Positions 22,224 to 40,030 of a stretch of DNA of 40,030 nucleotides are shown in pieces. A program made the translations under genes and the position numbers. Each line of letters starts with the position of its first letter. Position 1 is the stretch's first letter. The notes under the pieces are model-generated. The model did not search any database. It saw only the letters and a program-made list of their open reading frames with translations, and was not told the DNA's origin. The stretch covers positions 1 to 40,030 of the forward strand of contig JACUUH010000020.1 of NCBI GenBank assembly GCA_014859375.1, written 5' to 3'. Source of the stretch: Gammaproteobacteria bacterium (GTDB lineage Bacteria; Pseudomonadota; Gammaproteobacteria; Nitrosococcales; Methylophagaceae).

Positions 22224-22235
22224 CCGTATAATCAC

Positions 22236-22280
22236 TTGTGTTAATTCTTTTTAAACTATATGATAATCATTATCATTTAG
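22236..22280 (+). promoter_or_regulatory. feoAB promoter with Fur box
   Basis: A -10 TATGAT (22259-22264) lies 17 bp from a TTGTGT (22236-22241). The -10 overlaps GATAATCATTATC (22262-22274), and GATAATCATTATCATTTAG matches the 19-bp Fur consensus in reverse orientation at 15 positions. Fe2+-Fur would cover the -10 and repress, so the operon should be induced by iron shortage. Confidence 0.8.
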
Positions 22281-22296
22281 ATTTGAGCCTAAGATT

Positions 22297-22536
22297 ATGA
22301 AACTGACAGACATTCAAACATTATCAGCACTTAAAGTTGGACAATCAGCGACTGTTCATGCTTTACATGTCGATTCGGGGTTTATGTATCGATTGAATGC
22401 AATGGGATTTCGAATAGGTAAACCGTTAGAGCTGATTCGTATTGCGCCCTTTAATGGACCATTTCACATCAAATTGGGTAATACCGAAGTTATGTTACGC
22501 CAACAAGATGCAGCTAACATTGAGGTATTGATGTGA
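22297..22536 (+). CDS. feoA: Ferrous iron transport accessory protein FeoA
   Basis: This small SH3-like protein supports FeoB in Fe2+ uptake. The 79 residues include L-x-x-L-K-V-G-Q near the N-terminus, FMYRLNAMGFRIGKPLELI and the terminal GNTEVMLRQQDAANIEV, all typical of FeoA. Its last codons overlap feoB by 4 bp (ATGTGA), indicating translational coupling. The ribosome site is weak. A Fur box lies directly upstream. Confidence 0.95.
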   Translation: MKLTDIQTLSALKVGQSATVHALHVDSGFMYRLNAMGFRIGKPLELIRIAPFNGPFHIKLGNTEVMLRQQDAANIEVLM

Positions 22537-24320: not shown

Positions 24321-24327
24321 CTGACTC

Positions 24328-24358
24328 AGGCTAGTGCTTTGAATAACAGCACTAGCCT
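24328..24358. terminator. Hairpin between convergent feoB and the small charged gene
   Basis: A perfect 11-bp stem (AGGCTAGTGCT / AGCACTAGCCT) with a 9-nt loop lies between the two convergent stops. T-runs are weak on both sides, so it is probably a modest bidirectional terminator. Confidence 0.6.
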
Positions 24359-24370
24359 CATTATTAAGTA

Positions 24371-24571
24371 TTAGATTGGATCGTCACTGCCCCACGAAAT
24401 AGCCGAACCACGACGATCTTTACCCGATCTGCGATCGTCTTTATCAAGCTCAAAACGAATCATTTCCCGCTGATCTTTGCCAGTACGCCGTTGTTTCTTA
24501 CGGCGATCCTGTTCACCGGTATGATGCCAATGGCCTTCTTCACTCATCAAGTCATGCTTCGAATCAGTCAT
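24371..24571 (-). CDS. Small highly charged protein with RSGKDRR motif, unknown function
   Basis: The 66-residue product is rich in Arg, Lys, Asp and His, with no hydrophobic segment. Two related blocks, DRRKKQRRTGKDQRE and DRRSGKDRRG, flank MIRFELDKD. Short proteins with RR-SGKDRR motifs occur widely in gammaproteobacteria, without a known role that I can name. An AAGGAG lies 9 nt before the ATG, an excellent ribosome site that supports a real gene. It could bind nucleic acid or be a disordered interaction peptide; that is speculation. Confidence 0.7.
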   Translation of the reverse strand: MTDSKHDLMSEEGHWHHTGEQDRRKKQRRTGKDQREMIRFELDKDDRRSGKDRRGSAISWGSDDPI

Positions 24572-24640
24572 ATACTTAGTCTCCTTAACGTTTTATCGTT
24601 ACGTTATGTAATCAAAACTACTCTTTTGATCTGTTTACTG

Positions 24641-25483
24641 TCAACGTTCAACCAATAAATTAAATTGCCTTTTAATGTGCTGGTACGGACATTCAAACGC
24701 AAGGTAATAGGCTGTTAAATGTAAGTTTTCTTTATCGCCTTCTTTACCATGCATCCGATCACCTACAACCGGAAATCCCAGTTCGGCACTATGGCGACGA
24801 ATTTGATGTTTACGACCCGTTTCAATATCGACGTCCACAATCGATCTGTCTTGGTCAGCATCATACTGTACCAATGAAAAATGACTGACTGCGCTACGAC
24901 CATCAATATCACTAGCAACTCGAACGCAATGATCGTTATCTAATCTTTTCGACAAGTCGCCATGAACAACGATGCGATAACGTTTTTCTACTTGGCGTTG
25001 CTGAAATAGATGCGATAAGGCTGCAGCGGCCGTCTTCTCATGTGCAATAACAATCAGGCCATTTGCCGCACGATCAAGTCGATGTACAACAAAGCCATTA
25101 CGTTGTGGCGATAAATGCTGTTCGGCCCAACGTGTAATCGTACAGTGATCCCCCCATTTCGAGCCTTGTGATAACAGACCATAAGGTTTATTCCAGACGC
25201 TGTAATGGCCAGCATCAAATAACAACGTTGGTTCAGGCGGATTTCGGGTCAATACTGCGCTGTCATAATAAATATGAATAATTTCGCCACGCTTGAGTGC
25301 TCTCTTGGCGCGTCTTAAACGTTGTGTATGTTTACCCTTTGATAGCCAAACCGCGCCTTTTAACATCACTTGTTTAACAGTTTGTTTTGACAATTGAGTT
25401 TGCTGGGCTATCAGATCGACAGCTATAGCACCGTTAGTAGGCACTTCTATATGTTTTTCGAATCGCGATGAGGTATCAGACAT
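24641..25483 (-). CDS. RluA-family pseudouridine synthase
   Basis: The enzyme isomerises uridine to pseudouridine in rRNA or tRNA. An S4-like RNA-binding domain (about residues 25-75) precedes the catalytic domain. The RluA signature VHRLDRAANGLIVIA, with its catalytic Asp, lies near the middle, and TGRKHQIRRHSAELGFPVVGD is the conserved C-terminal block. I chose the ATG at 25483 (280 residues); a GTG four codons upstream at 25495 is possible. Neither start shows a good Shine-Dalgarno. The RNA target site cannot be deduced. Confidence 0.9.
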   Translation of the reverse strand: MSDTSSRFEKHIEVPTNGAIAVDLIAQQTQLSKQTVKQVMLKGAVWLSKGKHTQRLRRAKRALKRGEIIHIYYDSAVLTRNPPEPTLLFDAGHYSVWNKPYGLLSQGSKWGDHCTITRWAEQHLSPQRNGFVVHRLDRAANGLIVIAHEKTAAAALSHLFQQRQVEKRYRIVVHGDLSKRLDNDHCVRVASDIDGRSAVSHFSLVQYDADQDRSIVDVDIETGRKHQIRRHSAELGFPVVGDRMHGKEGDKENLHLTAYYLAFECPYQHIKRQFNLLVER

Positions 25484-25545
25484 TTTATGATTCACAGGTT
25501 TAGCGTAAAATTTAAGCCTATTATAATCAATGTGGACAAGGAACT

Positions 25546-26001
25546 ATGTTTAAACCTTATCTTAGTCTGTTCAATCTGTGTTTGATACTTGCTATGTTTA
25601 GCACCAATACAGTTGCTGATATCTATAAATGGGTCGATGAAAATGGTCAAACCCACTATTCACAACAAGCGCCAGCGCAACAAAAGGCTGAACTGCTAAA
25701 AACACCACCGCCACCAGCCTTTAATCCTGATGCCCAACAAAAGGTAGATGACTTAATTGAACAGCAACAAGCTGATAGACAAGCGCGCATCAAACAGCAG
25801 CAACAACAGCAACACGCTGCTGAGCAACTTGCTATCAAACAACAAAACTGCACAACAGCAAAAAACAACTTGCAACAGTATCAGGATAACCCCGGCAGAC
25901 GTGTTGCTGATGCTGAAGGCAATGTAACCAGATTAAAAGAAGAAGATCGTCAACAACGTATTCAGGAATTTCAACAACAAGTACAACAGTACTGTAATTA
26001 A
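25546..26001 (+). CDS. DUF4124-domain secreted protein, Gln-rich
   Basis: The 151-residue product has a signal peptide (about 1-24, ending TVA), then the DUF4124 signature DIYKWVDENGQTHYSQQAP (about 25-43). A long Gln-rich, coiled-coil-like tail follows (about 60-151), with runs of Gln and a pair of cysteines at its two ends. It is probably periplasmic. The role of DUF4124 proteins is unknown; many sit at cell-envelope loci. The next gene begins 13 bp downstream with a good AGGAG, so the two are co-transcribed. Confidence 0.85.
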   Translation: MFKPYLSLFNLCLILAMFSTNTVADIYKWVDENGQTHYSQQAPAQQKAELLKTPPPPAFNPDAQQKVDDLIEQQQADRQARIKQQQQQQHAAEQLAIKQQNCTTAKNNLQQYQDNPGRRVADAEGNVTRLKEEDRQQRIQEFQQQVQQYCN

Positions 26002-26014
26002 AGGAGCAATCGTT

Positions 26015-26350
26015 ATGCCTTATCTTAATATTGTGACCAATCAAACAGTCAGTGATGAACAAGCGCTACTCAAAGCGGCAAGTCAAACCGTCTCATCTGC
26101 TGCAGGCAAACCAGAAAATTATGTCATGGTTGCTGTTGAAGCCAAAGCCAATATGCTTATGGGTGGTAGCAATGCTCCAGCAGCATTCCTTGACTATCGT
26201 GCCTTAGGCCTGCCGCGAGATAGAACCGCTTTTTCAGATGCTTTATGCAGTTTAATTCATGAACAACTAGGCATTGCTGGAGATCGTATCTATATCAGCA
26301 TGACTGATTCTGAACGACAAAATTGGGGTTGGAACTACGATACGTTCTAA
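26015..26350 (+). CDS. Tautomerase / MIF-like protein
   Basis: The 111-residue product resembles macrophage migration inhibitory factor and phenylpyruvate tautomerases. Pro2, which becomes the N-terminal catalytic base after Met removal, is present (MPYLNI). Other family marks are the PENYVMVAVEA strand with a conserved Lys region before it, and the C-terminal DRIYISMTDSERQNWGWNYDTF with NWGWN. The physiological substrate in bacteria is not known. AAGGAG lies about 9 nt before the ATG. A terminator follows. Confidence 0.88.
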   Translation: MPYLNIVTNQTVSDEQALLKAASQTVSSAAGKPENYVMVAVEAKANMLMGGSNAPAAFLDYRALGLPRDRTAFSDALCSLIHEQLGIAGDRIYISMTDSERQNWGWNYDTF

Positions 26351-26367
26351 CTATCATTGAGCACAAC

Positions 26368-26404
26368 ACTGGCTCCTTTAACCAAGCCTAAGGCAGCCAG
26401 TTTT
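26368..26404 (+). terminator. Rho-independent terminator after the tautomerase gene
   Basis: A stem of about 11 bp with one bulge (ACTGGCTCCTT / AAGG-C-AGCCAGT) is followed by TTTT, 18 bp after the tautomerase stop. It separates this two-gene unit from proS. Confidence 0.75.
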
Positions 26405-26444
26405 AACATTTAGCCCAACATAACTACAGGATTTAATCCCGCAC

Positions 26445-28160
26445 ATGCGTACCTCTCAATTATTAATATCGACGTTAAAAGAAACCCCTGCTGATGCTGA
26501 AGTAGTCAGCCACCAACTTATGCTCCGTGCTGGATTAATCCGCCGCTTAGCATCAGGTTTATATACCTGGTTGCCTATGGGCTTAAGAGTATTACGTAAA
26601 GTCGAAGCGATTGTTCGGGATGAGATGTCTCGTGCTGGCGCACAGGAATTATTAATGCCATCGATTCAACCAGCAGAATTATGGCAAGAAAGTGAACGCT
26701 GGCAAAAATATGGCCCAGAATTACTTCGTATAACTGATCGTCATAATCGCGAGTTTTGTTATGGTCCAACCCATGAAGAAGTAATCACTGATTTGGTTCG
26801 CCAAGAAATTCGCAGCTACAAACAACTTCCAATCACGTTTTATCAAATCCAAACAAAGTTTCGAGATGAAGTACGTCCTCGTTTTGGTGTGATGCGTGCA
26901 CGTGAGTTCTTGATGAAAGATGCCTACTCGTTCCACTTGGATCAAGCGTCACTTCAACAAACCTATGATGATATGTTCAGAGCTTATTCCAACATTTTCA
27001 GTCGCATTGGCCTTGATTTCAGACCAGTGCAAGCCGATACAGGCAGCATCGGTGGTAATGCATCACATGAATTTCATGTTTTAGCCAGTTCTGGTGAAGA
27101 TGCCATTGCATTCAGTGATAGTAGCGATTATGCAGCTAACGTTGAATTAGCTGAAGCGTTAGCACCGACAGGCGCTCGCACTGCAGCCACTGAAACGATG
27201 ACGGTTATTGATACCCCCAAACAACATACCATCGATGATCTGTGTCGTTTTCTTAATACAACAGCAGAACAATGCCTAAAAACGTTAATTGTTGAGGGTG
27301 CAGAACAAGGTAGTGTCGTAGCCTTAGTCTTACGTGGCGACCACGATTTAAATGAAATAAAAGCAGAAAAACACCCTGCTGTCGCATCACCGTTAACTTT
27401 TGCAACACCAGAACAAGTCTTAACCGCGTGTGGTGCTAGTATTGGCTCCATTGGTCCAATAGGATTGACTATTCCAGTATTAGTTGACCGTGCTGCCGCC
27501 CATGCCGCTAACTTTGTCTGCGGTGCTAATCAGGATGATAAACATCTAACAGGTGTAAACTGGGGTCGTGATTTACCAGAGCCTGAAACAGCAGATTTAC
27601 GTAATGTCGTCGTCGGCGATCCTAGTCCAGATGGTCAAGGCACATTAGATGTCGCTCGTGGCATCGAAGTCGGTCATATCTTCCAATTAGGTGACAACTA
27701 CAGTAAAAAGCTCAACGCTAATGTGTTAGCTGAAACCGGTAAATCTCACATTTTAACAATGGGGTGTTACGGTATTGGGGTATCTCGTGTCGTTGCTGCT
27801 ACTATTGAACAAAATCATGATGATCGTGGCATTATCTGGCCTATTGCCATAGCGCCATTTGAAGTAGTGCTTGTACCGGTCAATGCTCACAAATCTGTTC
27901 GCGTTCGTGAAGCAGCAGACGCGTTATATCAACAATTGCTTGATGCCGGCTTTGATGTTTTGTTAGATGACCGAGGTCTAAGACCTGGTGTTGCCTTTGC
28001 TGATATGGAATTAATTGGTATTCCTCACCGACTAATTTTAGGTGAACGTGGTCTGGATAACGGTATGATTGAATATAAATGTCGTGCCGATGGCGAAGGT
28101 GCTGAATTTGCTTTAGCGGATACTATTGTCGAACTCAAACAACGTCTATCAGCCAAATAA
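26445..28160 (+). CDS. proS: Prolyl-tRNA synthetase, bacterial type with editing insert
   Basis: This class II synthetase charges tRNA-Pro. The 571 residues show the N-terminal catalytic core ([47 protein letters not shown]; motif 2 around [28 protein letters not shown]). An INS/YbaK-type editing domain (about 225-400) clears mischarged alanine. Motif 3 lies in [17 protein letters not shown], and the C-terminal anticodon-binding domain is complete. The length matches E. coli ProS (572). Confidence 0.97.
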
Positions 28161-28183
28161 ATTGAATCTGAGACACTAAATCT

Positions 28184-29707
28184 ATGACTGTTATATCAGA
28201 ACAAGACTTTATTGATAGTATTGCCGATGCCTTGCAATTTATTGCTAATTATCATCCTAAAGACTTTATTCAAGCCATGGCTGATGCTTATGACAAAGAG
28301 CAGTCTCCTGCTGCCAAAGATGCAATTGCTCAAATCTTAATTAACTCACGTATGTGTGCTCAAGATAAACGCCCTATTTGCCAAGATACCGGTATCGTCA
28401 ATGTCTTTATCAAAGTAGGTATGCAAGTTCAGTGGAATACAAGCAAGTCCTTGGATGACATGGTTAATGAAGGTGTACGTCGTGCTTATTTGCATCCAGA
28501 TAATATCCTAAGATCATCAATAGTCAGTGATCCACTGGGCACACGAACCAATACCAAAGATAACACACCAGCGGTGATTCACACTCAGCTGGTTACTGGT
28601 GATAAAGTTGAAATTGACATTGCAGCTAAAGGCGGTGGTAGTGAAAATAAAGCTAAATTCACCATCCTAAATCCTAGTGATAGTCTCGTTGATTGGGTAC
28701 TGGAAACAGTCCCTAAAATGGGTGCGGGTTGGTGTCCTCCTGGTATGCTGGGCATTGGCGTCGGCGGTACTGCTGAAAAAGCGATGTTGATGGCAAAACA
28801 ATCGTTAATGGCACCAATTGACATACAAGAGTTGATTGAACGTGGGCCTGAAACTACTACCGAAAAACTCCGTGTTGAGTTGTATCACAAGGTTAATGAT
28901 CTAGGCATTGGTGCTCAAGGCCTAGGTGGATTAACAACCGTACTCGATGTCAAAATTAATGACTATCCAACACATGCTGCTTCGTTGCCTGTGGCAATAA
29001 TTCCTAACTGTGCTGCCACCCGCCATACCCATTTTATTTTGGATGGCACAGGCCCTGCCCAATTCGAACCACCCGCATTAAGTGATTGGCCAGAGATTAC
29101 ATGGCAGGCAGCACAAAACACGCGCCATGTTAATCTGGATACACTCACTCAAGCAGATATTGAGCAATGGCTTCCGGGTGAAACCTTATTGCTCAGTGGT
29201 CATTTATTAACCGGTCGCGATGCTGCACATAAAAAAATTGCCGACTTATTTACAAGCGGTTTACCCCTTCCAGATGGTTTAGATTTTAACAATCGTTTCA
29301 TCTACTATGTAGGTCCTGTCGATCCAGTAAAAAATGAAATTGTTGGCCCAGCAGGACCGACTACTGCTACACGTATGGATAAATTTACCGACATGATGCT
29401 GGATAAAACCGGTTTGCTTGGCATGATCGGTAAAGCTGAACGTGGACCAGAGACCATCGCATCGATCAAACATCATAAATCTGTTTATCTGATTGCCGTT
29501 GGTGGTTCAGCTTATCTGGTATCAAAAGCAATCAAAGCATCACGCATTATTGCCTTTGAACAATTAGGCATGGAAGCAATACGCGAGTTTACTATTGAAA
29601 ACATGCCTGTTACTGTTGCAGTAGATAGCCGCGGACAATCTGTTCATCACTCTGGTCCGATAGAATGGAAACAGAACATTGCCGATATCAAACTGTCTCA
29701 ACATTAA
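28184..29707 (+). CDS. fumA: Fumarate hydratase, class I (iron-sulfur)
   Basis: This [4Fe-4S]-dependent fumarase interconverts fumarate and malate in the TCA cycle. The 507 residues include the alpha-type half (RPICQDTGIVNVFIKVG, GGGSENKAKF, GTAEKAMLMAKQSL) and the beta-type half (HLLTGRDAAHKKIADL, YYVGPVDPVKNEIVGPAGPTTATRMDKFT). The two halves are fused as in FumA/FumB. The cluster cysteines are the ones in RPICQDTG, GAGWCPPG and IPNCAATRH. The oxygen-labile cluster usually makes this class sensitive to superoxide. It starts 24 bp after proS. Confidence 0.94.
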   Translation: MTVISEQDFIDSIADALQFIANYHPKDFIQAMADAYDKEQSPAAKDAIAQILINSRMCAQDKRPICQDTGIVNVFIKVGMQVQWNTSKSLDDMVNEGVRRAYLHPDNILRSSIVSDPLGTRTNTKDNTPAVIHTQLVTGDKVEIDIAAKGGGSENKAKFTILNPSDSLVDWVLETVPKMGAGWCPPGMLGIGVGGTAEKAMLMAKQSLMAPIDIQELIERGPETTTEKLRVELYHKVNDLGIGAQGLGGLTTVLDVKINDYPTHAASLPVAIIPNCAATRHTHFILDGTGPAQFEPPALSDWPEITWQAAQNTRHVNLDTLTQADIEQWLPGETLLLSGHLLTGRDAAHKKIADLFTSGLPLPDGLDFNNRFIYYVGPVDPVKNEIVGPAGPTTATRMDKFTDMMLDKTGLLGMIGKAERGPETIASIKHHKSVYLIAVGGSAYLVSKAIKASRIIAFEQLGMEAIREFTIENMPVTVAVDSRGQSVHHSGPIEWKQNIADIKLSQH

Positions 29708-29731
29708 ATGCACAAATAGGAGCGCCATGTC

Positions 29732-30190
29732 ATGACTATTGCAATTGCTCTACACCTTTTAGCTGCTGTAATTTGGGTGGGTGGTATGTTTTTCGCCTAC
29801 GTCATAGTAAGACCAACAGCTGCGCAACAATTTGAACCCTCAGTAAAATTAACCTTATGGTCCGCTATTTTCGGACGCTTCTTTCCCTGGGTAATGCTGT
29901 CGATAATAACGCTGTTAATAACCGGAATTTGGATGACTGTTGCGTTAGGAGGAATGTCTGCCGCTGCGACCGGACTCCATGTTCATATTATGCTGTTGCT
30001 CGGCATTATTATGATGCTGATATTTTTACATGTGAACTTCAATTTGTTCAAAAAACTCAAGTTAGCAATTGCTGACCATGATTGGATTGCCGGTGATTTT
30101 ATATTGACTCAAATTCGAAAAGCTATTGCGATGAATTTAGCATTAGGTCTAATTGTCGTTATCGTTGCCTCTAGCGGACGATTTTTTTAG
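29732..30190 (+). CDS. CopD-like four-helix membrane protein
   Basis: The 152-residue product has four transmembrane helices with conserved histidines (H8 in helix 1; HVHIMLLLG and LHVNFNLF in helix 3), which is the CopD/YozB pattern. CopD proteins have been linked to copper uptake or, in some forms, haem binding; the role here is unassigned. An AGGAG lies 9 nt before the ATG at 29732. A nearer ATG at 29726 runs into a stop after two codons. The 3' end overlaps the long version of the next frame, which is one reason to place that start downstream. Confidence 0.75.
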   Translation: MTIAIALHLLAAVIWVGGMFFAYVIVRPTAAQQFEPSVKLTLWSAIFGRFFPWVMLSIITLLITGIWMTVALGGMSAAATGLHVHIMLLLGIIMMLIFLHVNFNLFKKLKLAIADHDWIAGDFILTQIRKAIAMNLALGLIVVIVASSGRFF

Positions 30191-30203
30191 TCGTATTGAT
30201 TCG

Positions 30204-30884
30204 ATGAATAAAGTAGTTATTATCTGTTTATTAACCATGACATCCAGCATGCTGATGGCTGATCAAATCAAGCAAATAATCAATGATGATGGAACAGTAA
30301 CATTCACAAACGTAGCCGCGACTAAATCAGCTAAAAACCAGAGCGTTATCTATCGTTATCCTGCTGCAGGTGATGTTACGGTTTTTACCGATCAAAAACC
30401 TACTCATATAACGACTTTTGATGTATTAAAATTTGATTGTTATGCCTGTAATCCAGATTCAACCATAGATTGGAATACTGTCGCGCTCAATCATAGTGCG
30501 TTTGCTGAAACAGTTAATAATGCAGCAAAGTCCAACCATATTGAGCCGGCATTGGTTCGCGCCCTAATTCATGCCGAATCAGCGTTTAATCCCAATGCAC
30601 GGTCACAAAAAGGTGCCAGTGGTTTAATGCAGCTTATGCCTGCCACGGCTAAAGAGCTTGGTGTGAGCAATATATTTAATGCCAAGCAAAACATTGAGGG
30701 CGGTGTACGTTATCTGGCGCAATTACTAAAAGTGTTTAATGGCAATATTAGCTTGGCAACGGCAGCCTATAACGCTGGCCCCAATGCTGTAAAAAAATAT
30801 AATGGCATTCCGCCCTATCAAGAAACCAAAGTCTATGTTGAACGTGTTAGCATTCTGCATAAGCGTTATAAAAATGAAAGTTGA
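30204..30884 (+). CDS. Lytic transglycosylase (SLT domain) with DUF4124-like N-terminus
   Basis: The predicted periplasmic enzyme cleaves peptidoglycan glycan strands. From the ATG at 30204 the 226 residues begin with a signal peptide (MNKVVIICLLTMTSSMLMA). A DUF4124-like stretch follows (IKQIINDDGTVTFTNV), then an SLT domain (about 115-225). The catalytic Glu is in HAESAFNP, and GASGLMQLMPATAKELGV, GGVRYLAQLL and AAYNAGPNAVKKY are canonical. I rejected an upstream ATG at 30153 because it lies inside the previous gene and would bury the signal peptide. Confidence 0.9.
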   Translation: MNKVVIICLLTMTSSMLMADQIKQIINDDGTVTFTNVAATKSAKNQSVIYRYPAAGDVTVFTDQKPTHITTFDVLKFDCYACNPDSTIDWNTVALNHSAFAETVNNAAKSNHIEPALVRALIHAESAFNPNARSQKGASGLMQLMPATAKELGVSNIFNAKQNIEGGVRYLAQLLKVFNGNISLATAAYNAGPNAVKKYNGIPPYQETKVYVERVSILHKRYKNES

Positions 30885-30892
30885 TTTAAACC

Positions 30893-31165
30893 ATGGCTAA
30901 TCTCAAGAAATTTCTTGCAGAAAATGAACAATTGATTCATTCCAAAATGAAAAAAGTTGAATCACACGTCCAGCGACAGATCGATAATTGGGTGCAAAAT
31001 ACCATTTTAATTGAAGAGTGTGATATTCCATTTAAATACAAACGCCAAAAAAAATATAAATCGCTACAGGGCGCGCGAGTCGATATCATTTATTACCCCA
31101 GTCATGAAGACATAGCAGGTATCTCCTTTGATTATATGAAAGTGATAAAAATCAATTTATCCTAA
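30893..31165 (+). CDS. Small soluble protein of unknown function, 90 aa
   Basis: I do not recognise this family. The 90-residue product starts 8 bp after the lytic transglycosylase stop. It has an amphipathic, Lys-rich N-terminal helix (about 1-40), then aromatic-rich strands ([25 protein letters not shown]), with no signal or membrane segment. Tight spacing before and after supports a translated gene in the same operon. Confidence 0.65.
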
Positions 31166-31181
31166 ACCAAGATTAGAAAAA

Positions 31182-31403
31182 ATGAACAATTTTCAACACA
31201 ATAACCCACTGCATGGTCATACATTAGAAAGCATATTAGTCGCATTGGTCGAGTTCTATGGCTGGGAAGGTCTCGGACGCCATATTGACATTCGCTGCTT
31301 TAATCAAAACCCATCAATCAAATCGAGCCTTAAATTTCTACGTAAAACGGAATGGGCAAGAAGAAAAGTTGAAGATTTGTTTATTGATATGCAAAAGCCC
31401 TAA
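31182..31403 (+). CDS. VF530-family (DUF2132) small protein
   Basis: The 73-residue product matches the VF530/DUF2132 pattern: [33 protein letters not shown] (about 8-40), then [24 protein letters not shown]. The family has a compact helical fold and was named a DNA-binding protein, but its role is not settled. It lies 16 bp after the preceding gene and 17 bp before the AUU-started epimerase-like gene. Confidence 0.88.
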
Positions 31404-31420
31404 CACATCGGGAGTAGACT

Positions 31421-32215
31421 ATTAGAAAAATTAGCATTTTAGGTAGCGGCTGGCTAGGTAAGCCGCTTGCCCAACATTTTGCCAATAGCGGTTTTATAAC
31501 CGCTCTATCAACGCGATCTCCAGACAAAATTGAGTCATTAACATCTGACAACATCACGCCCTATCTTGTTGATATCGATAATATCACTGCTGAATGTGAT
31601 GATTTTTTCAATTCCGACACACTGATTATCGCTATTACCTCCAAGAATATTGAAGCCTATCAAAACCTGATTGCTTATATTGAACAATCACCGATAAAAC
31701 AGCTTATTTTTATCAGCTCATCTTCTGTTTACAAAACAACCAATGACATTGTGACTGAACAGTCAAATGATGAAAACGCAGACAGCGAATTACTGCACAT
31801 AGAAACCTTGTTTAGAGCTAATCCCAATTTCGCAACAACTATCCTGCGATTGAGTGGTCTAGTTGGTTATAGTCGACATCCGGGAAATTTCTTTGCTAAT
31901 GGCAAGCTGGTTCAACATGCTGATGCGCCAGTTAATTTAATCCATCGTGATGACTGTATTGGCATCATCGACGCAATTATTGACCAACATAAGTGGAATG
32001 AAATATTCAATGCTTGTGCCGACACCCATCCCACCAAACGTATCTTTTATAGTCATGCCAGAACCTTGCTTGGCTCGGCTACAACTGGTTTACGTTTTGC
32101 TGACAGCAATGAATTAGAATTTAAAATCGTCAGCAATGATAAAGTCAAACAACAGTTAAATTATCAGTTTAGCTATCCTGATGTTATGACCATTCCGTTT
32201 GGTAATGGTGCATGA
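31421..32215 (+). CDS. NAD(P)-dependent epimerase/dehydratase-like (SDR) protein with an apparent AUU start
   Basis: The frame from 31421 encodes 264 residues, with a Rossmann motif ISILGSGWLGKPLAQHF at the very N-terminus. The nucleotide-binding site, a TLIIAITSKN strand and IFISSSSVY are all intact. The C-terminal NLIHRDDCIGIIDAI and EIFNACADTHPTKR blocks are typical of YeeZ-like extended-SDR proteins. An in-frame TAG stands at 31415-31417. No ATG, GTG or TTG precedes the Rossmann fold, and the first in-frame ATG (31751) would delete it. ATT at 31421 lies 6 nt after GGGAG, an ideal ribosome site. Its stop overlaps the next gene by 4 bp. The substrate is unknown. Confidence 0.8.
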   Translation: MRKISILGSGWLGKPLAQHFANSGFITALSTRSPDKIESLTSDNITPYLVDIDNITAECDDFFNSDTLIIAITSKNIEAYQNLIAYIEQSPIKQLIFISSSSVYKTTNDIVTEQSNDENADSELLHIETLFRANPNFATTILRLSGLVGYSRHPGNFFANGKLVQHADAPVNLIHRDDCIGIIDAIIDQHKWNEIFNACADTHPTKRIFYSHARTLLGSATTGLRFADSNELEFKIVSNDKVKQQLNYQFSYPDVMTIPFGNGA

Positions 32216-32691
32216 CAATGCAAAACAGCACCAATGAGCGATGTCCATGTAGCAGTGGCAGCAGTTATTCAAGCTGTTGTCAGCCATTACATGATGGCAT
32301 AGTGACCGCGGCCAGTGCTGAACAATTAATGCGCTCGCGTTACAGTGCATTTTGTTTAAAAAAGGCACCCTACCTAATTGCGACCTTACACCCTGATTAC
32401 CGTAGTGCCGATGATGAACAAAGCCTCGCAGAACTGTTTGAACAAACACAGTGGTTAGGTTTAAAAGTCATTTCACATAAATCTAAAAATAACACTGCCA
32501 CAGTTGAATTTTCAGCGTTTTATCAAGATGCAAATCAGGTAGCTCAGCTGCACGAACGGTCACGATTTGTCAAAATTGATAACTGCTGGTTCTATCAAGA
32601 TGGTGACATACTTCCACCCATCACATTAGCTCGTAATGACAGCTGTTTTTGTGGCAGTGGCAATAAATACAAAAAATGCCACGGTCGCTAG
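32212..32691 (+). CDS. ychJ: YchJ family protein with two SEC-C motifs
   Basis: The 159-residue product has zinc-binding SEC-C motifs at both ends: CPCSSGSSYSSCC near residues 11-23 and CFCGSGNKYKKCH at the C-terminus. Between them is the UPF0225/YchJ core, including LMRSRYSAFCLKKAPYLIATLHP and FVKIDNCWFYQDGD. The function is unknown; SEC-C motifs bind zinc and often mediate protein contacts. A 4-bp overlap with the epimerase-like gene indicates coupling. Confidence 0.9.
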   Translation: MTMQNSTNERCPCSSGSSYSSCCQPLHDGIVTAASAEQLMRSRYSAFCLKKAPYLIATLHPDYRSADDEQSLAELFEQTQWLGLKVISHKSKNNTATVEFSAFYQDANQVAQLHERSRFVKIDNCWFYQDGDILPPITLARNDSCFCGSGNKYKKCHGR

Positions 32692-32790
32692 TTTTTCATC
32701 GCCAGCCCTTTGCCAATTGAAAAAACTTCATCATTGAAAACACTGCAAAGTTCTGAAAACCAGTATATCCAACTAACTTGGTCCTCGGCA

Positions 32791-33711
32791 CTATAACGCC
32801 AGTTTGCTCTCAATATCAGCTTTATCCAATTCAGGTATACATAATGCGATAAAGTCATAACCAAACGTTCTAAGATAATGGCCTTTTCTGACTGCTAATT
32901 TCGTTTGGTTTTCGCCAAACAGGTGACTGCTATCGATCAATGCAAGACCTGTATCACGTTTGGCATCAAATGCCATAGCAGCGACAATACCAACACCCAT
33001 ATCCAATTCGACATACGATTTAATAACATCGGCATCTAATGCAGACATCGCTATATCAGGAAAAATACCGACATCAGCAAACGCTTTATCAATCGTTGCG
33101 CGTCCGGTGAAGCCTTCGTGATAGGTCACAATCGGATAAGCAGCAATATTATCGAGTTGTATTGTTTCTATCTGTGTCAGAGGGTGAGCTTTTGGAACGA
33201 GGACGGCATGTTGCCAACGATAATAAGGAAAACTCACCAGCTCATTAATGCCACCAATGGCTTCAGTTGCAACCCCAATATCAGCTTCACCATTTAGCAA
33301 CATTTGTGAAATTTCATCAGGGCTAGCCTGATGAAGTTTTAAATGAACTTTAGGATAATGCTGCTTAAATTTTTTAATGACCTCGGGCAAAACATAGCGT
33401 GCCTGGGTATGGGTGGTAACAATGGTTAATTTACCTGTGTCCTGTTGGCTGTATTGATCCGCAAGATTTTTTAGATTTTTAGCATCAAGAAGCATCCGCT
33501 CCACAATCTGTTGCATCTCTTTACCCGGTTCGGTTAAACCAATTAAACGTTTACCTTTTCTGATATAAAGATCAACGCCAAGCTCATCCTCCAAGTCTTT
33601 AATGTGCTTGGACACACCCGACTGCGAGGTGAACAAATGATTGGCGACCTCGGTCAGATTGAAATCATGTCGCACCGTCTCGCGGATAATCCGTAGTTGT
33701 TGAAAGTTCAT
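32791..33711 (-). CDS. cysB: CysB-type LysR regulator of sulfur assimilation
   Basis: The 306-residue LysR protein has an N-terminal winged helix (about 1-60: [46 protein letters not shown]). Its effector domain resembles CysB/Cbl ([40 protein letters not shown]). CysB activates sulfate-assimilation genes when N-acetylserine signals sulfur shortage. It is the last gene of the sulfate-import operon, overlapping cysA by 4 bp, so the regulator and its target transporter are co-expressed. Cbl is an alternative name. Confidence 0.88.
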
Positions 33712-34799
33712 GCAAGGCTATCCTTATTGATGCTATCTCTATGAAACAACTTTAGTTTCGACGGCACTAGCTTAACGATTTGACCACTGGTTAATGATAA
33801 CTCATCGACACGTTGTGGACTCAGCTCCACTTCAAAATGCTGACCAGCAGCGCTATTGATACCATCGAGTTCGACCCGTGAATTCAAACCAAATGACAGA
33901 ACACGATTGACTTTGGCTGATAAGCCATTGACTTGCTGGTTATCTGTAACGATCTCTAATTCATGCGGACGAGCAAAAGCATAGACTTCCGAACCATGCT
34001 CATAATTTTCACCCTGATTATGAATAACATCATCTCCAATATGCAGATGGCCATCATCAACGCGACCGTGAAACAGATTGACCGAACCTAAAAAGCCATA
34101 GACAAATGGGGTTTCCGGATGATTATATACTTCATCAGGGGTACCAACCTGTTCCACTTTACCGTGATCCATCATCACTACTCTGTCAGCGACTTCCAAT
34201 GCTTCTTCCTGATCATGCGTTACAAAAATGGATGTAATATGCAACTCATCATGCAATTTACGCAACCAACGACGTAACTCCTTACGCACCTTGGCATCCA
34301 ATGCCCCAAACGGCTCATCTAACAATAACACCCGTGGCTCTACTGCCAAGGCTCTTGCCAACGCAATTCGTTGTCGCTGGCCACCCGATAGTTGTGATGG
34401 AAAACGATCCGCCAGCCAATCCAATTGCACCAATTCGAGTAGGCGGTGGACTTTTTCAGCAATGACCTTTTCAGACGGTCTTGTTTTGCGAGGCTTCATT
34501 CTTAAACCAAATGCCACATTATCAAATACAGTCATATGCTTGAATAAAGCATAATGTTGAAAAACAAAGCCAACTTGACGTTCGCGCACATGAGTAGCTG
34601 AGGCATCATCCCCTTCAAGAATCACTGAACCGGAATCAGCTTGGTCCAACCCCGCAATAATTCTTAATAAAGTCGTTTTTCCACAGCCAGATGGACCTAA
34701 CAATGCTACCAGCTCACCTGATGGAAAGTTGAGCGAAATATCGTCCAATGCGGTAAAACTGCCAAATTGTTTATGTAAATTTTTAACTTCTATGCTCAT
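33708..34799 (-). CDS. cysA: Sulfate/thiosulfate ABC transporter ATP-binding protein
   Basis: This ATPase drives the CysTW permease. The 363 residues show Walker A GPSGCGKT (35-42), Q-loop [21 protein letters not shown], signature [16 protein letters not shown], Walker [13 protein letters not shown], and switch His in [11 protein letters not shown]-terminal TOBE-like regulatory domain follows (about 240-355). It lies 17 bp after cysW and overlaps cysB. Confidence 0.96.
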
Positions 34800-34816
34800 G
34801 TTAATCGTCTCTTAAA

Positions 34817-35731
34817 TTAATGTGCCGAGGCATTAGTGTCAGCGCGGTGTTCGACCCAGGTTTTTAATACCAGCGTCACTAAGGCCAATAGTGCCAGCAA
34901 TGATGCTACTGCAAAGGCTGCGGCAAAGTTGTATTCGTTATAAAGAATTTCAACGTGTAAAGGCAGGGTATTGGTTTGTCCACGTATATGCCCAGATACC
35001 ACGGACACCGCACCAAACTCACCCATCGCTCTGGCATTACACAAAATCACCCCGTACAGCAGTCCCCATTTAATATTGGGCAAAGTCACATACCAAAAGG
35101 TTTGCCAGCCACCAGCACCTAATACAACAGCCGCCTCTTCCTCTTCCTTGCCTTGTGCCTGCATCAATGGAATTAGCTCGCGCGCAACAAACGGGAAGGT
35201 AACAAATATAGTGGCAAGCACAATGCCCGGAACCGCAAAAATAATCTTGACATCGTTAGCGACAAGCCATTCACCAAACCAACCATTGACACCAAATACC
35301 AGCACATAGACTAGACCGACAATGACCGGTGAAACAGAAAAAGGCAGATCGATGAAGGTAATTAACAACTGCTTGCCTTTAAATTCAAACTTGGCAATTG
35401 CCCAAGCAGCAGCCACCCCAAACACCAAATTTAATGGCACTGCAATTGAGGCTGCCAACAGTGTCAACCGCACCGCTGATAAGGCATCAGCATCAGTCAA
35501 TGCAAGCCAGTAAACGCCAAAGCCTTTGCGTAGTGCTTCTGAAAATACCGCTATCAGTGGCAGCAACAAAAATAAAGCAAAAAAACTCAAGCCCATGCTA
35601 ATGACAGCAATTTTTATCCATTTATTCTCTCGGGTTGCGACATTGTGTTCAAATTTAGTCGGCTCAACCCACTTAAATAGTCGATCTGATGGTTTAGCCT
35701 TTAAAGACGTATCGGTTATTGCAGTACTCAT
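34817..35731 (-). CDS. cysW: Sulfate ABC transporter permease CysW
   Basis: This inner-membrane permease of the sulfate/thiosulfate importer has 304 residues and about six helices. The coupling EAA loop, EEEEAAVVLGAGGWQTFWYVTLPNIKWGLLYG, lies in the second half, and MGEFGAVSVVSGHIRGQTNTLPLHVEILYNEY is typical of CysW. It overlaps cysT by 4 bp. The N-terminal about 40 residues are hydrophilic and longer than the core. Confidence 0.95.
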   Translation of the reverse strand: MSTAITDTSLKAKPSDRLFKWVEPTKFEHNVATRENKWIKIAVISMGLSFFALFLLLPLIAVFSEALRKGFGVYWLALTDADALSAVRLTLLAASIAVPLNLVFGVAAAWAIAKFEFKGKQLLITFIDLPFSVSPVIVGLVYVLVFGVNGWFGEWLVANDVKIIFAVPGIVLATIFVTFPFVARELIPLMQAQGKEEEEAAVVLGAGGWQTFWYVTLPNIKWGLLYGVILCNARAMGEFGAVSVVSGHIRGQTNTLPLHVEILYNEYNFAAAFAVASLLALLALVTLVLKTWVEHRADTNASAH

Positions 35732-36567
35732 TTATTTCTTCCTGTGCGTTTGCCAGCCCATGATTGCAAGGCATTAATAATCAACAACATCACAAACGAC
35801 ACCACCAACATAACGGCTGCAATTGCGGTCGCTCCGGTATAGTCATATTGCTCGAGTTTGGTAATAATCATTAATGGGGTAATTTCTGACACCATCGGAA
35901 TATTGCCGGCGATAAAAATAACCGAGCCATATTCGCCAACTGCCCGAGCAAACGCCAATGCAAAACCAGTCATCAAAGCAGGCAACAGGATTGGCATCAG
36001 CACATAGCGAAACGTCTGCCAGCGATTTGCACCCAAACTGGATGCCGCTTCTTCAAGCTCTGTTTCCAAATCCTGAAGTACGGGTTGCACTGTTCGCACT
36101 ACAAACGGCAAACCGATAAATACTAATGCCACCAGAACACCCAGCGGTGCAAAAGCCACTTTTATGCCTAACGATCCCTGAATAAACTGACCCAACCAGC
36201 CATTTGGAGCATATATCGCTGTTAATGCAATACCCGCCACCGCAGTCGGCAAGGCAAAAGGTAAGTCAATCAAAGCATCGACAATTTTCTTACCCGGAAA
36301 GGAATACCTAACCAACACCCATGCCAGCATTAAGCCAAAGACAGAATTAATAGCTGCCGCGCCTAACGAAGCACCAAAAGATAATTTATAGGATGCGACG
36401 ACTCGAGGCGCGGTTACGACTGCCCAAAATTCAGTCCAAGTTAATGCGCTGGTAAAAACAAACACTGCACTCAATGGAATCAGAATAATCAATGACAGGT
36501 AAACCAGAGTAAAGCCCATCGACAGGCCAAACCCTGGTAATACCGAAAATGATTTAACAGAAGACAT
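35728..36567 (-). CDS. cysT: Sulfate ABC transporter permease CysT (CysU)
   Basis: The partner permease to CysW has 279 residues and six helices. Its EAA loop is EEAASSLGANRWQTFRYVLMPILLPALMTG, and AVGEYGSVIFIAGNIPMVSEITPLMIITKLEQYDY follows, the CysT signature. The start codon overlaps the end of the binding-protein gene by one base, and the stop overlaps cysW by four, so the order binding protein, permease, permease, ATPase is tightly coupled. Confidence 0.95.
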   Translation of the reverse strand: MSSVKSFSVLPGFGLSMGFTLVYLSLIILIPLSAVFVFTSALTWTEFWAVVTAPRVVASYKLSFGASLGAAAINSVFGLMLAWVLVRYSFPGKKIVDALIDLPFALPTAVAGIALTAIYAPNGWLGQFIQGSLGIKVAFAPLGVLVALVFIGLPFVVRTVQPVLQDLETELEEAASSLGANRWQTFRYVLMPILLPALMTGFALAFARAVGEYGSVIFIAGNIPMVSEITPLMIITKLEQYDYTGATAIAAVMLVVSFVMLLIINALQSWAGKRTGRNK

Positions 36568-37577
36568 TAGCGATTCACCATGATTTGATCAAACAATGCA
36601 CCATCAGCGAAATGCTGTGCTTTAACAGCAGCCCAGCCACCGAGCTTTTCTTCAACCGTAAAGGTTTTAATAGTCGGATATTGGTGCTGAAAGTTAGCTA
36701 ACACTGTTTGATTTCGTGGTCGAAAGTTTTGCTTGGCAATAATTTCCTGACCTTGTTCACTGTACAGAAAATTCAGATATTCTCTGGCTAATTCGGTGGT
36801 GCCACGCTTTTCTGTCACCGACTTAATAATGGCAACCGGTGCCGATGCATCAATAGAAAGCGATGGATAGACCACATCAAATTTATCCTTACCCAACTCA
36901 CCTGCAATTAATATAGCTTCATTTTCAAAGGTCACCAACACATCGCCAACATCACGCTGGGTAAATGTCGTTGTTGCCCCGCGACCACCACCATCCAAAA
37001 CCGGCACATTGGCAAATAATTTAGTCACAAAGTCTTTTGCGCCCTGCTCGCTGCCAGTCGTTTCAAGCGCATAGCCCCATGCTGCAAGATAGGTGTAACG
37101 GCCATTGCCTGATGTTTTAGGATTCGGCACGATAACTTCCAGTCCAGAACGCGTCAAATCTGACCAGTCCTGAATGTTTTCAGGATTACCTTTGCGGACT
37201 AAGAAAACGGTGGTGGTTGAATACGGTGTAGCGTTATGCGGAAACTGCTCTTGCCAATTGGCAGCAATCAAGCCTTTATCAGCCAGCATTTGAATATCTG
37301 GCGACTGATTCATAGTAATAACATCAGCTTCTAAACCAGCGGCAACCGCCATTGCCTGTTTGCTTGAGCCGCCATGAGACTGATTGATAGTGACCTTACG
37401 GTTTTGCTGTTTTTGAATAAATGTTTCAAAAGCTGGGTTGATGCTCTTATATAGCTCTCTCGATACGTCATAAGACACATTGAGCAAACTGTCTGCCGCC
37501 CAGACACTATTAGTTAGTGCTAAGCCAAAGCTTGTTGCAATTGCTACTTTTTTAAAGATTGATTTGTTGATTTTCAT
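36567..37577 (-). CDS. sbp: Periplasmic sulfate-binding protein
   Basis: The sulfate receptor delivers anion to CysTWA. I placed the start at 37577 because GGAG stands 7 nt upstream and a signal peptide begins immediately (MKINKSIFKKVAIATSFGLALTNSVWA). An ATG six codons upstream, at 37595, is possible. The mature protein starts near ADSLLNVSYDVSRELYKSINPAF. Other family blocks are NQSHGGSSKQAMAV and NPKTSGNGRYTYLAAWGYAL, which contain sulfate-contacting residues. It could be Sbp (sulfate) or CysP (thiosulfate); the YDVSRELY and QSHGGS motifs fit Sbp. Confidence 0.93.
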   Translation of the reverse strand: MKINKSIFKKVAIATSFGLALTNSVWAADSLLNVSYDVSRELYKSINPAFETFIQKQQNRKVTINQSHGGSSKQAMAVAAGLEADVITMNQSPDIQMLADKGLIAANWQEQFPHNATPYSTTTVFLVRKGNPENIQDWSDLTRSGLEVIVPNPKTSGNGRYTYLAAWGYALETTGSEQGAKDFVTKLFANVPVLDGGGRGATTTFTQRDVGDVLVTFENEAILIAGELGKDKFDVVYPSLSIDASAPVAIIKSVTEKRGTTELAREYLNFLYSEQGQEIIAKQNFRPRNQTVLANFQHQYPTIKTFTVEEKLGGWAAVKAQHFADGALFDQIMVNR

Positions 37578-37595
37578 TGAACGCTCCACGGTCAT

Positions 37596-37828
37596 ATATT
37601 TATGTACGGGGCAGAGTTTAAACAGACACCTTATTCAAAAGAACCAATAAAAAACGCAAAGCTTATGAATTTTTCTGCTAAGAAATTGTTATCAGCCACT
37701 CACATAAGAACCTATTCAGCCTAATGAATAAGCATAGAAGATATTGTTATTTGGCTTTTGTCTCGTCAAGCATTATTGTTTGCATGAATAAAAAACACCT
37801 AACATAAACAACACTTAAGGAAATGAAC
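37596..37828. other. Divergent intergenic region between sbp and the fadL-like gene
   Basis: This 230-bp gene-free region must hold the promoters of both the cys operon (minus) and the fadL-tusA-dsrE2 set (plus). Apart from the palindrome at 37714-37731 and the AAGG before fadL, I see no strong promoter hexamers. It is AT-rich, like the upstream genome and unlike the cassette itself, which suggests the join lies close to the fadL start. Confidence 0.4.
37714..37731. promoter_or_regulatory. Candidate LysR (CysB) box in the sbp/fadL divergent region
   Basis: A perfect palindrome, TATTCA-N6-TGAATA, lies about 137 bp upstream of the sbp start and 98 bp upstream of the fadL start. It has the inverted-repeat shape of LysR-type boxes, and the operon encodes CysB. 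Binding is inferred, not shown. Confidence 0.4.
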
Positions 37829-39090
37829 ATGGCGACCAACACACATTTTGTGTCGATATCAACTGGACTGCTGATTGCTTCGCTGGCAATGCCAGCATTT
37901 GCCACCAACGGCTATCTGCCTCATGGCTACAGTATTCGTTCACAGGGTATGGGCGTGTCGGAATTGCCTTGCCACAGGACGCGATCGCAGCTGCCAGCAA
38001 TCCAGCCGGAATGGTCTTGATCGGTGATCGCACTGATCTTGGCTTGAGCTGGTTTCGTCCACAACGCGATTCTACGATCTCAGGTAGCCCAGACCCAACA
38101 GTGAACGGCAACTATGATGCCGATAAGACCGAGAACTTCTTGGTTCCAGAGTTTGGTTATAATCGTAAAGTCAGATCCGATCTCAGTCTCGGTGTCAGTG
38201 TGTATGGTCATGGCGGTATGAACACCGACTATGACCGACCAATCCCGCTGCTTGGCACCTCACGTCCCGGTATCGATCTGGCACAGCTATTTATCGCACC
38301 GACCATTGCCTGGCAAGTCACGCCCAAACACAGTCTGGGACTTTCAGTGAACCTAGCCTATCAGCGTTTTGAAGCCAAGGGACTACAAAATTTCGACCAG
38401 CCAGGTTTCACCAAACACCTAGGCAAGGTCACCAACAACGGTTATGACTCAGCCGTAGGTGCGGGCATTCATCTGGGCTGGATTGGTCAGATAAGTGATG
38501 ATGTCAATGTCGGAGCCACATATCAAAGCAAGACCTATATGAGCGAGTTTGATGATTATAAAGGGCTGTTTGCAGATGGTGGTGATTTTGATATTCCGGC
38601 ACACTATGGGGTCGGCATTGCGATTAAGGCGACACCCAAACTCACCGTCGCTGCTGATGTGGAACGTATTTTCTACAGCGATGTCAACTCAGTCGGTAAT
38701 GACTCTGTAGGCAAACTGCTGACCGGACAGCAACTAGGTGCTAATAACGGCCCCGGTTTCGGCTGGCGCGATATCAACGTCTATAAGCTTGGTGTCAGTT
38801 ATGCCTACAACCAAGATCTGACCCTGCGTACCGGTTATAACCACAGCACCCAACCGGTTCGCGACCATGATGCCTTGTTTAATATTCTCGCACCAGGTGT
38901 GGTGCAAGACCAGCTCACTCTGGGCGCAAGCTGGAAGCTGGGCAAGGGCGAACTGTCCGTGAGCTATATGCATGCGTTTGAGGATAGCGTCAAAGCAAGT
39001 AATGCCATTCCCAACGCATTTGGCGGTGGCGATGTCAAGCTCAAAATGCATCAGGATTCCTTCGGTATCACCTATGGCTGGAAACTATAA
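37829..39090 (+). pseudogene. OmpP1/FadL-family outer membrane protein, frameshifted
   Basis: FadL-type barrels let hydrophobic compounds cross the outer membrane. The start ATG at 37829 lies 8 nt after AAGG. It gives a signal peptide (to ...AMPAFA) and a FadL-like mature start (TNGYLPHGYSIRSQGMG). Near 37955, within ATG GGC GTG TCG GAA, the frame is lost. Adding one G restores GGC-GGT-GTC-GGA and continues into IALPQDAIAAASNPAGM, open to 39090 with a normal barrel end (GITYGWKL). A single-base deletion thus splits an otherwise intact gene of about 420 codons. It may be a recent mutation or a sequencing error. Codon use is GC-richer than in the neighbours upstream. Two bases separate it from tusA. 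Confidence 0.85.
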
Positions 39091-39092
39091 TT

Positions 39093-39338
39093 ATGACCAC
39101 TCAATACCATGCAGACATCGACCTAGACGTGCGCGGACTGTCTTGTCCGTTACCAGTGATTCGAACCAGAAAGGCAGTGGATGAGCTTGGCTCTGGCAAA
39201 ATACTCAACGTGATCACATCCGACCTGACTTCGACTAATGAATACCATGCACTTGCCAACAGCCTTGGTCTGGAGTTGCTTGATTCAAATATAAATAAAG
39301 ATGAGGGTGTTCTCGCAATCTGGCTAAGGAAACCATGA
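39093..39338 (+). CDS. tusA: TusA-family sulfur carrier protein
   Basis: TusA-type proteins carry persulfide sulfur on a single cysteine. The 81 residues contain the motif DVRGLSCPLPVIRTRKAVDEL with the CPLP active cysteine (residue about 18-21), then the two-layer fold through ITSDLTSTNEYHALANSLGLELL. The frame is intact, unlike both neighbours. Placed before a DsrE2 gene, it fits the rhd-tusA-dsrE2 type of sulfur-trafficking set in sulfur oxidisers, here without a rhodanese. It could still be functional if expressed. Confidence 0.9.
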   Translation: MTTQYHADIDLDVRGLSCPLPVIRTRKAVDELGSGKILNVITSDLTSTNEYHALANSLGLELLDSNINKDEGVLAIWLRKP

Positions 39339-39339
39339 C

Positions 39340-39805
39340 ATGACCAAAAAACTTGCCCTGATCGCCTCCAAAGGCACGCTGGACTGAGCCTATCCACCCT
39401 TCATTCTGGCTTCCACAGTTGCCGCACTCGGTTACGATGTGTCGATATTCTTCACTTTTTACAGCTTGACTCTGCTGAAAAAAGGCATCAGCGACTTGAA
39501 AGTGTCACCCTTAGCTAATCCGGCGATGTCAATGCCGGTGCCAATCCCTTCGATTGTGCAGGTCTTGCCAAGACTCGAAAGCGCGGCAACTAATGATGCC
39601 GCGCAAACTCAAGACTAAGGGCGTGGCCAGCATCGAACAATTGCGATCCATCTGTCTGGAATCTGCTGTCAAGTTAATCGCCCGCCAGATGACCCTTGAT
39701 TTGTTCGATTTTAAACAGCAAGACTTCATTGACGGCATTGATTATCGCGCTGCGGCCACTTTTTTCGAGTTTGCCGGTGAAGCCGATGTCAGCTTGTTCA
39801 TTTGA
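39340..39805 (+). pseudogene. DsrE2-type sulfur-relay protein, degraded
   Basis: The gene starts one base after tusA. The remains read MTKKLALIASKGTLD-stop-AYPPFILASTVAALGYDVSIFFTFY, typical of the DsrE2 (DrsE_2) family. A TGA at 39385-39387 replaces a sense codon. A second lesion near 39588-39597 (ATTAATGATG region) shifts the frame, giving TAA at 39616-39618. The other frame continues as KTKGVASIEQLRSICLESAVKLIARQMTLDLFDF to the natural end SLFI. Where family members usually have a Cys before QM, this copy has Arg, so the reactive cysteine also seems lost. Three independent lesions make a true pseudogene likely. Confidence 0.85.
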
Positions 39806-40030
39806 TTTTTATATTCACAAGAAATCTGGATGATGAGTTTTGAGGAATCGCTCGATATATACCCAATCAACTTGAAGATGCTTGCTACTTTTACCGTTCG
39901 TGGTCGACTGCATGGATGCAGTAGGTAGAGCAATGCAGGACAGCAAACGTTCCTACGTTTCTTCTGCACACCTCATCCATGTCGATAAGCAGTTGCCGAG
40001 AAGTTATCGAATACCGTTGGTGGTGAGCTT
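39806..40030. other. Palindromic extragenic sequence, possible MITE or REP-like element
   Basis: No gene is visible. TATATACCCAATCAACTTG (from about 39857) resembles ends of extragenic repeats I associate with marine gammaproteobacteria. It is followed by hairpins CTGCAT-GG-ATGCAG (about 39909-39922) and AAACG-N6-CGTTT (about 39946-39961), with GTAGAGCAATGCAGGA between them. The family assignment is from memory of pattern only. The element may continue past the window. Confidence 0.35.

Follow-up and report, generated by a model that had tools for sequence, protein, structure and literature searches.

Gene content and lesions of the cassette

The final 2.2 kb of the contig analysed here (the window, 40,030 nucleotides in full) carry three genes, which lie head to tail on the plus strand and are preceded by sulfate transport genes on the minus strand:

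37823..39090, plus strand: TodX/FadL-type outer-membrane barrel, pseudogene (PF03349, 108 bits; sister copy open)
39093..39338, plus strand: tusA, open (PF01206, 58.6 bits; sister copy open too)
39340..39805, plus strand: dsrE2, pseudogene (PF13686 in two pieces; sister copy split by an apparent insertion element)
36567..37595, minus strand: cysP-like gene for a sulfate/thiosulfate-binding protein, divergent neighbour of the barrel gene (TIGR00971, 408 bits)
33708..36567, minus strand: cysA, cysW and cysT, sulfate ABC transporter (profile matches)
32791..33711, minus strand: CysB-family LysR regulator (NF009327, 438 bits)

The three plus-strand genes are tightly packed, with gaps of 2 bp between the barrel gene and tusA and 1 bp between tusA and dsrE2, as described in a first-pass annotation made from the sequence alone; the start was placed there at 37829, which a further in-frame ATG at 37823 precedes. 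The barrel gene, whose stop codon lies at 39088-39090, contains the single frameshift that had been noticed: an N-terminal ORF (37823-38020) and the main ORF (37969-39090) part near 37951-37968, and the signal peptide is thus out of frame with the barrel. The family assignment rests on PF03349 (Toluene_X), which is matched with 108 bits by the window ORF and with 108.7 bits by the copy of the sister species (cut-off 29.7); against the NCBIfam FadL equivalog, the barrel scores 24 bits, far under the cut-off of 585. When its profile is compared with solved structures, the nearest is TodX (3e-26), followed by TbuX and CymD and then FadL. TodX, TbuX and CymD are channels for aromatic hydrocarbons.

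TusA had been called intact, and its reading frame is indeed open; it contains the CPxP motif (SCPLP in the translation) and exceeds the PF01206 cut-off of 28.6, and neither the sister TusA (40.1 bits) nor the native TusA of the host (55.1 bits) reaches the NCBIfam equivalog of E. coli-type TusA (cut-off 78). The dsrE2 gene starts with an ATG at 39340 and has all three defects attributed to it, namely an in-frame TGA at 39385-39387, a frame break near 39589-39592 and the replacement of the conserved Cys of the LIACQ motif by Arg. Cys occupies this position in the other rows of the alignment (a rounded 100% of 63 comparison rows, L138 left out). In a search with single pieces, the C-terminal piece reaches 71.1 bits for PF13686 and the N-terminal piece 19.2 bits, below the cut-off of 25; a separate profile search of the genome again split dsrE2 and returned two matches above the cut-off, one of which contains the TGA. 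According to the accessible text of PMC4175335, DsrE2A has two strictly conserved cysteines, of which the window copy retains one, the other being the Arg; the two pieces of the sister protein hold both.

A phase-variable or programmed frameshift of the barrel gene was considered and rejected on the sole ground that no repeat tract was seen by eye at the break. A stretch at 31.4-32.2 kb looked like a second, truncated pseudogene, but it is an open frame in both species. Between the cassette and the contig end (39858-40011) lies a dispersed hairpin-forming repeat, which is matched in part or in full at 23 further places in this genome and at about 15 in the sister species, often as a 47-bp unit; it has no match in Rfam, and the search of 37500-40030 against this database gave 0 matches.

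A second inactivation in the sister species

The cassette also occurs in a sister species (G021), whose DNA is about 90% identical to that of the genome of the window (G000); the left flank is common to both, and identity is 92.4% across the fetched stretch that matches window positions 20979-39659. In G021, the barrel gene is open over 422 amino acids in one frame, tusA is open, and the sequence is open at the barrel break, at the dsrE2 stop and at the second dsrE2 break of the window. Its DsrE2 scores 102.4 bits for PF13686. The gene is split beyond the lesion sites of the window by a sequence with 16 matches in G021 and 0 in G000; eight of the 16 lie no more than 200 bases from a contig start, and the matches on contig C7 and at the far end of contig C93 no more than 80 bases from a contig end. 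The remainder of dsrE2, including the Cys, begins on contig C13, where the opposite end of the element precedes it, and a 6-bp direct repeat, seen by eye, flanks both junctions. We read this sequence as a multicopy insertion sequence, presumably IS21-like, of which the ends and the copy number alone were seen. Since G021 is open at the window lesions and split by the element instead, dsrE2 was broken twice and independently, and two sister species that break the same extra set in different ways constitute a natural experiment.

The cassette of G021 ends about 290 bp from a tRNA-Cys gene. An island at a tRNA site is nevertheless not supported, as the tRNA-Cys site of G000 is found on another contig (L186) beside other genes, and the right flank differs. 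On L186 (G000:C93), genes that by eye resemble a nucleotidyltransferase/HEPN pair lie to the right of tRNA-Cys, where G021 has the cassette.

Substitutions at conserved sites were counted with L138 left out. At dsrE2 columns that are at least 70% conserved, 11 departures are found in the window copy alone and one in the sister copy alone (p 0.006). A window site at the frame break, which belongs to both column lists, is perhaps misaligned; without it, 10 versus 1 would be left. At columns with 90% conservation, seven departures are specific to the window and one to the sister (p 0.07). For the barrel, the corresponding numbers are 7 versus 2 (60% columns) and 3 versus 0 (80% columns), which is not significant. 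Pairwise dN/dS between the window and G021 amounts to 0.136 in the part of the barrel gene behind the break, 0.265 in tusA and 0.131 in dsrE2; seven of eight flanking genes lie at 0.03-0.10 and the eighth, a YchJ-like gene, at 0.307. Given the cassette values of 0.13-0.27, constraint persisted until recently. The decay that the first-pass annotation had proposed is well supported as real, and it recurs in the sister, whose dsrE2 is split by the element.

Composition, distribution and phylogeny

Among the 40 one-kb windows of the stretch, the two highest GC contents are those of 38001-39000 (0.509) and 39001-40000 (0.474). GC3 is 0.523 for the barrel gene, 0.469 for tusA and 0.601 for dsrE2, and all three exceed the 30 other window genes chosen for comparison (mean 0.349, standard deviation 0.045, maximum 0.436); native dsrE2 has a GC3 of 0.416, and six barrel genes of the genus have 0.307-0.369. 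The cassette is thus richer in GC than the preceding DNA, as had been claimed, by both one-kb GC and per-gene GC3.

The cassette barrel is present in two of 57 family genomes, this one and G021, and barrels at 43-49% identity occur in 11 other genomes of the genus and in a single genome from a different one. Of the 29 genus genomes, 24 have a PF13686 match, with a barrel-linked copy solely in G000 and G021; G004 has two near-identical matches, both of the native type. Rather than being present and intact in all close relatives, which the first-pass annotation would have taken as evidence against its reading, the cassette barrel is restricted to these two of the 57 genomes, and dsrE2 is broken in both.

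Two quick trees, one of 95 barrels and one of 123 (with row L135 dropped from the latter), separate the cassette pair from the barrels of the genus. Forcing cassette and genus barrels into one clade costs 98 log-likelihood units (p-AU 0.000943; 48 rows, hand-chosen from 124, with a taxonomic group that was selected after the earlier trees had been seen). By path length, the nearest barrel in the 95- and 123-row trees is that of the Methylophilaceae locus L071, which is 61% identical to the sister barrel; the 48-row tree puts other rows closest. As the nearest rows differ between the larger trees and the 48-row tree, no donor is named, and the barrel trees revealed no donor lineage for the cassette. 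In the DsrE2 tree, the cassette copies group with 24 native rows of the genus (98*), apart from 37 others; as these come almost wholly from barrel loci, the sampling of DsrE2 is narrow. Since cassette DsrE2 is nearest to native genus DsrE2, the cassette dsrE2 may be a diverged paralogue or may stem from a near relative.

Transfer of the cassette, which had been regarded as probable, is likely: distribution, composition and the barrel trees including the AU test argue for it, whereas the DsrE2 tree, which points nowhere outside the genus, and the absent donor argue against it.

Linkage of the barrel family to sulfur genes

The association of barrel, tusA and dsrE2 is widespread. Of at least 592 stretches found in named genomes, at least 575 were confirmed as relatives of the barrel, and the loci of the best 80 were surveyed, so that the counts given here describe the nearest barrels. 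When flanks of up to 6 kb are considered, dsrE2 is present on the same strand at 36 of the best 80 of at least 575 loci, tusA at 34 and both at 32; relative to the barrel gene, dsrE2 is upstream at 29 and downstream, as in the window, at seven. Another 33 of these 80 have no dsrE2 despite at least 2.5 kb on each side, and 11 are too short to judge. On the tree of the best 80 of at least 575 barrels, the dsrE2-linked state changes at least 12 times. All three genes are open at 32 of the 36 linked loci, which are thus intact triplets of the kind for which a search had been recommended. Hosts of the linked loci in this set include Thiobacillus, Sulfuritalea and Sideroxydans; an open set is carried, for example, by the cultured sulfur oxidiser Thiobacillus thioparus DSM 505 (L125).

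Further recurrent neighbours at these best 80 of at least 575 loci, with each cluster named from one representative, are rhodanese (10 loci), SoxY (nine), SoxZ (seven), cytochrome c (eight), a DmsC-like subunit (11), molybdopterin subunits (nine), iron-sulfur subunits (six) and YeeE/YedE-type genes (10); we read the molybdopterin and iron-sulfur subunits as soe-like. As a weak control, neither tusA nor dsrE2 was found in the flanks, just 1.5 kb long, of 13 loci (L026-L038) that encode FadL paralogues more distant from the barrel, and the barrels of the genus have neither gene within 1.5 kb.

Two other features were noticed in the survey. A protein of about 300 amino acids with a signal-like N-terminus follows the barrel at 18 of the best 80 of at least 575 loci (for instance L073:4688-5620); its cluster representative has no Pfam match at 1e-5. 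At L096, L097, L109, L118, L120, L121, L124 and L134, the main barrel is accompanied on the other strand by a second ORF of the barrel cluster, which could be a gene or an antisense ORF.

Sulfur genes of the host

The host possesses a native, open tusA-dsrE2 pair (G000:C74), which adjoins soxZ, soxY and an M48 peptidase gene and which, like the rarity of cysP and the wide association of the cassette genes, lay outside the view of the first-pass annotation. Because of this pair beside soxYZ, the extra copy looks redundant. No SoxB was found in this genome or in G021; it is present in nine of 29 genus genomes. SoxB and the barrel family (13 of 29, including this genome and G021) never co-occur in a genome of the genus, in raw counts that are open to effects of kinship and of incomplete genomes.

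The cysP gene next to the cassette is as rare as the cassette itself, being found in two of 29 genus genomes, this one and G021; cysT is found in nine of 57 family genomes. The cysPTWA genes may have been transferred together with the cassette. At L071, the barrel gene is collinear with cysT, cysW, cysA and two YeeE/YedE-type genes (L071:3048-8118), and the window barrel adjoins cysPTWA too, although divergently oriented, unlike L071. CysT occurs at 94% in four family genomes that belong to a different genus; in the two of these compared beyond the operon, L278 and L279, the upstream genes differ.

Interpretation and alternative explanations

We lean slightly towards the following account as a whole. 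The common ancestor of the window species and G021 would have held an extra barrel-tusA-dsrE2 set, of which at least the barrel came from outside the genus. The intact barrel probably passed a poorly soluble reduced-sulfur compound across the outer membrane; this compound would have entered the cytoplasm through another carrier, and its sulfane sulfur would then have been bound by TusA and DsrE2 and handed on to oxidation or biosynthesis. As the host already had an open tusA-dsrE2 pair beside soxYZ, the extra set was presumably dispensable, and dsrE2 was inactivated separately, here by a stop, a frame break and loss of the conserved Cys, and in the sister by the insertion element; in the window species, the barrel has additionally lost the frame of its signal peptide. 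The anatomy, the lesions, the two inactivations, the shift in composition, the rarity within the genus, the barrel phylogeny and the repeated linkage in other bacteria are observed, and the direction of transfer, the redundancy, the substrate and the flow of sulfur are inferred from them. The window thus contains an extra, probably acquired sulfur-trafficking set in decay, much as first proposed. The DsrE2 tree, the absence of a donor, the lack of SoxB, the 33 of the best 80 of at least 575 loci without dsrE2, the TodX-like kin of the barrel and the recent constraint count against this account.

Sequencing or assembly errors in a functional set would fit with the position of every lesion in the last 2.1 kb of the contig, which ends at 40030 and closes in a dispersed repeat, and with dN/dS values that indicate constraint until recently. 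It is, however, very unlikely that errors explain the lesions: base-call errors would hardly fall on so many conserved sites of dsrE2, the Cys included, and the same gene is broken by a different route in the sister. The set could also be long established in the genus and have disappeared from the other species, with its composition being a property of the genes rather than a trace of transfer, as the proximity of its DsrE2 to native DsrE2 and the relatives of the barrel in 11 other genus members might suggest. We consider this unlikely, since the genus barrels form a separate clade with ordinary GC3 (six measured) away from dsrE2, a single clade is rejected by the AU test, and 27 of the 29 genus genomes would have to have lost the set.

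It is quite possible that the barrel simply serves as a channel for hydrocarbons or fatty acids and lies beside tusA-dsrE2 by chance. Its nearest solved relatives would agree with this, as would the 33 of the best 80 of at least 575 loci that lack dsrE2 nearby and the 23 of these 80 without any scored sulfur-linked gene; chance would not readily explain, however, why linkage to dsrE2 occurs in two gene orders at 36 of the 80, with at least 12 changes on the tree, or why other neighbours are sulfur genes as well. Gene neighbourhoods thus support the sulfur role that the first-pass annotation assigned to the set; elemental or organic sulfur as the substrate, which it also suggested, goes a step beyond them and is something we infer. 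Because of the recurrent neighbourhood of dsrE2 and other sulfur genes, the barrel family is a candidate for an outer-membrane entry route for poorly soluble sulfur. Cellular uptake of externally supplied elemental sulfur is poorly understood, and a barrel family found repeatedly next to tusA-dsrE2 and to sox and soe-like genes is a concrete and testable candidate. It is tempting to speculate that this TodX/FadL subfamily is the missing route by which elemental sulfur, polysulfides or hydrophobic organosulfur compounds cross the outer membrane of sulfur-oxidising beta- and gammaproteobacteria, acting upstream of TusA-DsrE2, with the window holding an acquired copy that is being lost; in this broad form, the proposal is rather doubtful.

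Comparison with known systems

A literature search gave no description of a barrel beside tusA-dsrE2, which is a weak absence, as most subscription journals were outside its coverage. The TodX, TbuX, CymD and FadL channels share with the window barrel the profile match and the Pfam family Toluene_X; however, the cassette-type barrel has sulfur genes as neighbours and misses the FadL equivalog cut-off. The accessible sections of PMC7315123 describe the yeeE-yedE-pdo2 operon of Acinetobacter, in which YeeE/YedE genes take part in sulfur detoxification. YeeE-type and ArsR-type genes also occur at some barrel loci; however, these sections name no barrel, and none of the genes of the operon is next to the cassette. 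In the available parts of PMC11582611, the YeeE-like sulfur importers SoxT and TsuA work with TusA-like proteins. Import that feeds TusA-like carriers would be common to both, and YeeE/YedE-type genes adjoin some of the nearest barrels, for instance at L071; YeeE-type carriers, however, belong to the inner membrane, and none was seen beside the cassette in the ORF lists. Related arrangements are the tusA-dsrE2 and rhd-tusA-dsrE2 clusters, which occur in many sulfur oxidisers according to the accessible text of PMC4175335. As in these clusters, tusA is directly followed by dsrE2 and the pair is tied to sulfur-oxidation genes; the cassette differs in that it is led by a barrel gene, lacks an adjoining rhodanese gene (none was seen by eye among the ORFs on the left, and 0.2 kb of contig remain on the right) and is broken. 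While tusA-dsrE2 pairs as such are known, the recurrent linkage to a barrel appears to go beyond the ordinary and provides a lead that can be tested.
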